Made by a program: the position numbers and the translations under genes. A stretch of DNA of 64,000 nt from Mariniblastus sp. Its GTDB lineage: Bacteria > Planctomycetota > Planctomycetia > Pirellulales > Pirellulaceae. The notes below the pieces were generated by a model that was not told the DNA's origin, did not search any database, and worked only from the letters and a program-made list of their open reading frames with translations. This document shows positions 62,089 through 63,310 of the stretch, one piece after another. The stretch is taken from the NCBI GenBank assembly GCA_029247405.1, contig JAQWLH010000043.1:29657-93656 (forward strand), in the 5' to 3' direction. Every line of letters begins with the position of its first letter. Position 1 is the stretch's first letter.

Positions 62089-62137
62089 GTTGCAAACTCC
62101 TTTGCTTACGATGTCGAAACGAACAATCACATTGGAG

Positions 62138-62210
62138 GGTGACCGACCGGAATCGAACCGGCATGAACTTGGCTCACAACCAAGCGCTTTACCCTTAAGC
62201 TACGGACACC
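62138..62210 (-). tRNA. tRNA-His(GTG)
   Basis: Minus strand: G-1 opposite C73, acceptor GTGTCCG/CGGTCAC (one U-U mismatch), anticodon arm CTTGG-TTGTGAG-CCAAG, T arm GCCGG-TTCGATT-CCGGT. Confidence 0.9.
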
Positions 62211-62557: not shown

Positions 62558-62626
62558 CTGCAGACTTCGGAATTGAACCGAACCAATCGGCCATATAAAA
62601 GCCAACTGAGCTCCGGCTCGTCTGCA
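62558..62626 (-). other. Non-canonical tRNA-like element, anticodon UAU, replaced D-arm
   Basis: Minus strand: acceptor TGCAGAC/GTCTGCA (7 bp); GAGC-CGGA-GCTC mini-hairpin; anticodon arm TGGCT-TTTATAT-GGCCG; variable ATTGG; T arm TTCGG-TTCAATT-CCGAA. Confidence 0.5.
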
Positions 62627-63310
62627 AAAAATGAATAGCTAGAGACTCGACCTCTTCTCTGGTTGCCTCCCAATGCTGAGACTGAGTAAAACCCGTTAGT
62701 TCAAGGTGGTCCTAAACAGGTTCACACCGTCGATTTGATGCTTATCAAACAGCATCCCCAAGTCACGGGAGCGGGAACCGTTCGATTGACGCCACACGAT
62801 TTCCGACTTCGCCCAACTGCCCCAAGCCAGGCATGCATTGATTACCTTGCAGCGACAAATATTTCACTCACGTTCTAATTCAGCTTCACGTCTGAAAATT
62901 CTTACTACTTGGTTTCACGGGATTGACCTCAATTAAATCAGTCATGGCAGCGACTTGGACCGCAGAGCTATTGTGCGATACGGGACCTCACAACGCCGAA
63001 GCACCAAAGATTCATGATCAGAATCCTGGTTAAATTGGACACGTGTGAGTCAGTTTATGTCGACAAGGAATGTTCTTGAGAAAATTAATCGCCAGTCTCA
63101 TCCCAACAGCGTATCGGTCCAAAACTTTGCATCAAGTTTGGTGGACTGGTGTATTTGGATAGACAAACCACCTGATTTTTAGCAAATGTCAATCAACAAC
63201 TTTGAGATTCTTTTCCAGAATTGTTGATCATTTCATCTCTACCATTAACATAGGTAAATTAATGCGTAGAAGTTCTTTGCCCCAAGTCCACCCCTGCTCG
63301 GAATTCATCC

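Follow-up and report, generated by a model that had tools for sequence, protein, structure and literature searches.

What is the 69-nt tRNA-like element on the minus strand at 62558–62626, and is it still a working tRNA? The element lies in the window, the 64,000-nt stretch of Mariniblastus sp. DNA analyzed here. The sequence-only reading of this DNA, which had already placed it at these coordinates, offered three possibilities: an armless-type tRNA, a regulatory tRNA mimic, or a decaying tRNA gene. In the reading that we prefer, and to which we assign a probability of roughly 0.7, it is a surviving, altered member of a mostly lost tRNA array, a compact tRNA-Met(CAU) relic that is probably becoming a pseudogene. 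Its homology, array context, and structural conservation, together with its unique anticodon and discriminator, are matters of observation; charging and function in the family, and the loss of function in this copy, are inferred.

A compact cloverleaf

The 7-bp acceptor stem, the GAGC-CGGA-GCTC hairpin, the TTTATAT loop, and the T arm with its TTCAATT loop are all present as originally noted. The middle can be refined: the anticodon stem (GTTGGCT/GGCCGAT) extends to 7 bp instead of 5 and thereby leaves a 3-nt variable loop (TGG) in place of the 5-nt variable region. A single A connects the mini D-arm to this stem, and the discriminator is G73, at 62558 (Table 1). All 23 pairs of the layout form, the next best 69-mer on either strand of the 64-kb window reaching 20, and folding energy gives a z-score of –5.5. 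The cloverleaf is not the minimum-energy fold, however: a rod lies 4.7 kcal/mol lower, a gap that is the third largest among 53 family sequences.

Table 1. Positions of the element, its arms, and neighboring array features in the window.
Feature	Position	Strand	Remarks
Focal element	62558–62626	–	Compact tRNA gene of the array tRNA-Met(CAU) family; anticodon TAT, discriminator G
Acceptor stem, 5' strand (TGCAGAC)	62620–62626	–	Pairs with 62559–62565 (GTCTGCA), 7 bp
Mini D-arm (GAGC-CGGA-GCTC)	62608–62619	–	Abuts acceptor stem, no nt 8–9; GG in loop
Anticodon arm, 7 bp (5 + 2 extension), loop TTTATAT	62586–62606	–	Anticodon TAT at 62595–62597
T arm (TTCGG-TTCAATT-CCGAA)	62566–62582	–	From sequence and family pairing
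tRNA-His(GTG), array tRNA	62137–62209	–	348 bp from focal element; syntenic with L002
HNH endonuclease gene, 212 aa	61492–62130	–	Usually after tRNA-His in planctomycete tRNA arrays
Decayed array tRNA-Val(TAC)	62706–62770	–	Local score 139 (maximum 123 in 30 dinucleotide shuffles); 8-nt deletion
Possible decayed array tRNA-Arg(TCG)	62789–62854	–	Score 113 (shuffle maximum 123), not significant alone

The sequence-only reading had proposed running tRNA finders over the element. ARAGORN in its default mode did not call it, nor did the Rfam tRNA model with the threshold relaxed to E ≤ 10, where the sole Rfam match was a spurious one, Plastid-ycf2, on the opposite strand. ARAGORN in its metazoan-mitochondrial mode called it as Ile/Met with anticodon TAT; very permissive settings gave mostly noise. 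Since default ARAGORN and Rfam miss the window copy, similar genes may be unannotated elsewhere. Promoter and terminator scans gave no signal above shuffles.

A family with a conserved mini D-arm

When 40 related genomes were searched at the DNA level, homologues turned up in three further members of the genus, each inside a tRNA array of 10–12 genes. Within the genus, a covariance model built from four copies matched 12 of 28 genomes strongly (E below 1e-9); it also gave strong matches in other families of the phylum, where many weaker ones are ordinary tRNAs. Pattern scans then matched 44 GTDB contigs, nearly all from Planctomycetota (one is labelled Chthoniobacterales), and nine viral contigs. 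Together with the window copy, 39 sequences from the GTDB scan, a further 5 from planctomycete genomes, and 8 viral ones make up a set of 53 distinct sequences. Thus 52 distinct relatives share the focal layout, 44 of them bacterial (nearly all Planctomycetota) and 8 from viral contigs, and the conservation in relatives for which the sequence-only reading had proposed looking is there, with covariation in every arm. Copies of this mini-D family nearly always lie amid tRNA genes, of which one stretch has as many as 35; a single copy (L093) has no such neighbors.

The focal sequence itself gave no BLAST match among phage records. BLAST with the viral-contig relatives matched a Bacillus phage (OQ884030, L172:1501–1569) and a prophage-like plasmid of Bacillus altitudinis (NZ_CP101507, L173:3001–3069). 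Both hold a mini-D CAU tRNA-like sequence where no feature is annotated, although the gene table of the plasmid lists no RNA genes anyway, which suggests that mini-D tRNAs are overlooked.

Family members have a 7-bp acceptor stem, 0–1 nt between it and the D stem, a D stem of 3–4 bp closed by a 4–5-nt loop with GG, an anticodon stem of 6–7 bp, a variable loop of 2–3 nt, and a normal 5-bp T arm, a layout into which the window copy fits throughout. Pairing was compared with a control in which 3' strands were dealt among the 53 sequences; with these shuffles, which ignore relatedness, paired cells amounted to 98% versus 87% in the acceptor stem, 85% versus 70% in the D stem, 98.5% versus 77% in the anticodon stem, 82% versus 64% in its 2-bp extension, and 99.6% versus 80% in the T stem. 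The search pattern constrained spacing, acceptor ends, anticodon loop, and some of the T arm, and left free the D-arm, base 73, and the choice of C or U at position 34; D-arm pairing, the loop GG, CAU, and A73 are therefore independent observations. The label of an armless-type tRNA does not hold: both arms are present, and the short hairpin is a mini D-arm that keeps GG in 52 of 53 copies and pairs above shuffles. The compact D-arm design is old and conserved, with covariation in every arm across the 53 sequences.

Among the ARAGORN calls at the GTDB loci, a shortened 5' side is seen in 43 of 48 Met(CAU) genes (not a rate, the loci having been chosen for a short Met gene), versus 26 of 679 other tRNAs. 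None of the dispersed tRNAs in two genomes of the genus is short on this side. A second mini-D CAU tRNA occurs in the same arrays (L002:1402–1470, L034:1608–1677, L060:1579–1647, and L115:4166–4235, all on the plus strand); several of these have a 1:72 mismatch, as in an initiator-like acceptor, and the T-loop TGCGACN, so that residue 55 is G and not U. Array tRNA-Ile(GAU) genes with an unusual D-arm of the GGTAGTC-GAGGGCTGG type were also seen (L046:1501–1571 and L097:6160–6231 on the minus strand, L115:1078–1150 on the plus strand); reduced D-arms are therefore not confined to Met.

Amino-acid identity and the remnant of an array

All 52 relatives have the anticodon CAU, though the pattern also allowed UAU, and the discriminator is A73 in 48 of 53. 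In bacteria, the identity elements of tRNA-Met are A73, G2-C71, C3-G70, and C34-A35-U36 (PMC9976931). With CAU, G2-C71, C3-G70 and, in most copies, A73, the mini-D family matches them, and ARAGORN calls most relatives tRNA-Met; judged by these bases, the family is tRNA-Met(CAU). It may act as elongator or as initiator: its acceptor begins with U1-A72, as in the likely initiator tRNA of a genus mate (G040, L168), and some copies have a 1:72 mismatch. Initiator anticodon stems typically have three G-C pairs, and these are absent from the mini-D family.

Set against this array tRNA-Met(CAU) type, the window copy has neither the CAU anticodon nor A73; its UAU (62595–62597) and G73, both known from one draft assembly, occur in no other member of the family. 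The UAU anticodon is thus as unusual as the sequence-only reading held, being unique among the 53, but it is no mark of tRNA-Ile, because the family to which the element belongs is tRNA-Met(CAU). In eight of nine planctomycete arrays examined, tRNA-Ile(UAU) is a gene of its own with a normal D-arm. Assignment of the window copy to that type was rejected, since array Ile(UAU) genes differ from it in their acceptor and in having a canonical D-arm. By the anticodon comparison, the window copy is a descendant of the array tRNA-Met family rather than a working member of it.

The surroundings of the element were compared with L002, an intact array in which a mini-D element, tRNA-His, and an HNH endonuclease gene follow in the same order and on the same strand. 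The reported distance to tRNA-His was borne out. This tRNA-His is the second of the genome, another, canonical one lying elsewhere (L013); its acceptor stem has a T-T mismatch, also present in L002, so that this gene may itself be partly degenerate. Aligned with L002, the focal element is identical at 61/70 positions, tRNA-His at 66/74, and the tRNA-Val remnant, which lies upstream of the element in the order found in L002, at 47/75; the spacer aligns poorly. Among the upstream tRNA remnants only the tRNA-Val scored above shuffles; Arg(TCG) genes from five loci align to the same place and strand as the possible tRNA-Arg remnant. Inspection by eye suggested a decayed tRNA-Leu(CAA) between the element and the tRNA-Val remnant; this candidate was rejected, its alignment being mostly gaps.

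In L002, and in most of the array loci with a close relative of the HNH gene, that gene comes after tRNA-His; more distant relatives are found in viral tRNA-bearing contigs (L133, L138, and L139). The gene was rejected as an array-specific gene and is taken as an associated one only, since it is present in 189 of 246 genomes of the phylum, often without tRNAs nearby. The dense tRNA cluster of a tRNA array unit is seen at the homologous loci and not in the window, where tRNA-His is the sole tRNA near the element. Because a second tRNA-His, an adjoining HNH gene, and a tRNA-Val remnant stand in L002 order, the window is the shrunken end, or residue, of a supernumerary tRNA array, of the kind carried by many planctomycetes and some phages.

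A probable relic tRNA-Met and its closest known systems

In intact arrays, the mini-D tRNA would most likely adopt an L shape in which the GG of the D-loop docks on T-loop residues 55 and 56; MetRS would charge it, and it would bring Met into translation as a member of a near-complete second set of tRNAs. In the window copy, the changes C34 to U and A73 to G have removed two main Met identity elements, and it probably no longer works as a tRNA-Met and is a young pseudogene with intact stems. That the stems are kept while the Met determinants are gone probably reflects a recent loss of function. Against the pseudogene reading stand the intact pairing, unlike that of an old pseudogene, and a similarity to its relative about equal to that of the retained tRNA-His; the chance that 5–8 random substitutions break no pair is 0.2–2% under uniform mutation and 2–9% with transition bias.

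Intact stems and an identity to L002 similar to that of tRNA-His would also suit a working tRNA of switched specificity, its UAU reading AUA with Ile or another charge and replacing the array's lost tRNA-Ile(UAU). A UAU tRNA-Ile is a usual array member, and this incomplete genome yielded no other. However, G73 fits neither Met nor Ile, both of which have A73 in bacteria (PMC9976931), and the energy gap between cloverleaf and rod is among the largest of the family. Moreover, the host genome holds TilS and a canonical CAU tRNA (L010) resembling tRNA-Ile2, so AUA is presumably read already and a UAU tRNA is probably not needed for it; we regard a switch as rather unlikely. We give slightly less credence to a view in which mini-D tRNA-Met is a functional structural class spread by arrays on bacterial chromosomes and phages, with the window copy live, recoded to UAU, and reading AUA with a changed amino-acid identity.

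Decay of a canonical tRNA by deletion of its D-arm in this lineage might be read from GAGCTCAGTTGG, which resembles the beginning of an ordinary D-arm, and degraded tRNAs have been reported in planctomycete clusters (PMC4807772). Yet the same mini D-arm, with compensatory changes, recurs in 52 distinct relatives, viral-contig copies included, which makes this origin very improbable. The earlier suggestion of a decaying gene therefore holds for this copy, in its C34 and A73 changes and its lost array neighbors, and fails for the D-arm, whose reduced form is ancestral and conserved. The failure of default ARAGORN and Rfam to call the element would fit a tRNA-like RNA outside translation, such as a regulatory mimic or a site of processing or integration. 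Against it, the family lies amid tRNA genes, ARAGORN names most relatives tRNA-Met, and the Met identity bases are conserved; unsystematic inspection gave no sign of an integration site or linked regulator, and nothing supported the regulatory mimic once proposed. We hold such a role to be just as improbable as the deletion, and return to the relic of an array tRNA-Met as our preferred reading.

The reduced D-arm as a mark of a conserved tRNA class rather than of degradation is apparently new; nowhere in the open-access literature searched (most subscription journals lie outside it) was mini-D tRNA-Met found described as a conserved class. Covariation indicates that a bacterial tRNA-Met without nt 8–9 and with a D-loop of 4–5 nt is selectively maintained in bacterial arrays and phage contigs. 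The family would offer a testable system for the minimal size of a bacterial tRNA, and its arrays one for whether they supply nuclease-resistant spare tRNAs, as in the anti-nuclease role proposed for phage tRNAs (PMC10264068).

The arrays resemble the tRNA array units, or gene clusters, of Mycobacterium (PMC5966550, PMC12803027) and viruses (PMC6409571) in packing together supernumerary tRNA genes that duplicate the chromosomal set, on chromosomes, phages, and plasmids; those of M. avium include one HNH endonuclease gene and altered D-arms (PMC12803027). The present array differs in being planctomycete and nearly lost, and in the specific, conserved mini D-arm of its methionine tRNA. The degenerate tRNA gene clusters described in Planctomycetes in 2016, in which partially degraded tRNAs are accompanied by one canonical tRNA-Ile(UAU) (PMC4807772), belong to the same phylum and are of the same kind. 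The UAU gene of the window is not that Ile(UAU) gene, and whereas the odd members of planctomycete arrays have so far been treated as degraded, one of them, the mini-D tRNA-Met, is a conserved structural type.

In shape, the family recalls tRNA-Pyl, especially the Methanomethylophilus alvus type (PMC7609411), which likewise has no acceptor-D connector, a 4-nt D-loop, a lengthened anticodon stem, and a small variable loop. The resemblance is one of shape only: tRNA-Pyl has anticodon CUA and lacks G18-G19 and T-Psi-C, while the mini-D family keeps GG, TTC in the T-loop of most copies, and CAU. Membership was accordingly rejected for an element with UAU or CAU, a D-loop GG, and the T-loop TTCAATT. 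The nearest structural analogue is mammalian mitochondrial tRNA-Ser(UCN) (PMC7609411), with a short connector, a small D-loop, GG and T-Psi-C retained, an elongated anticodon stem, and a 3-nt variable loop; it is of unrelated origin, serves another amino acid, and has a connector of one nucleotide where the element has none.
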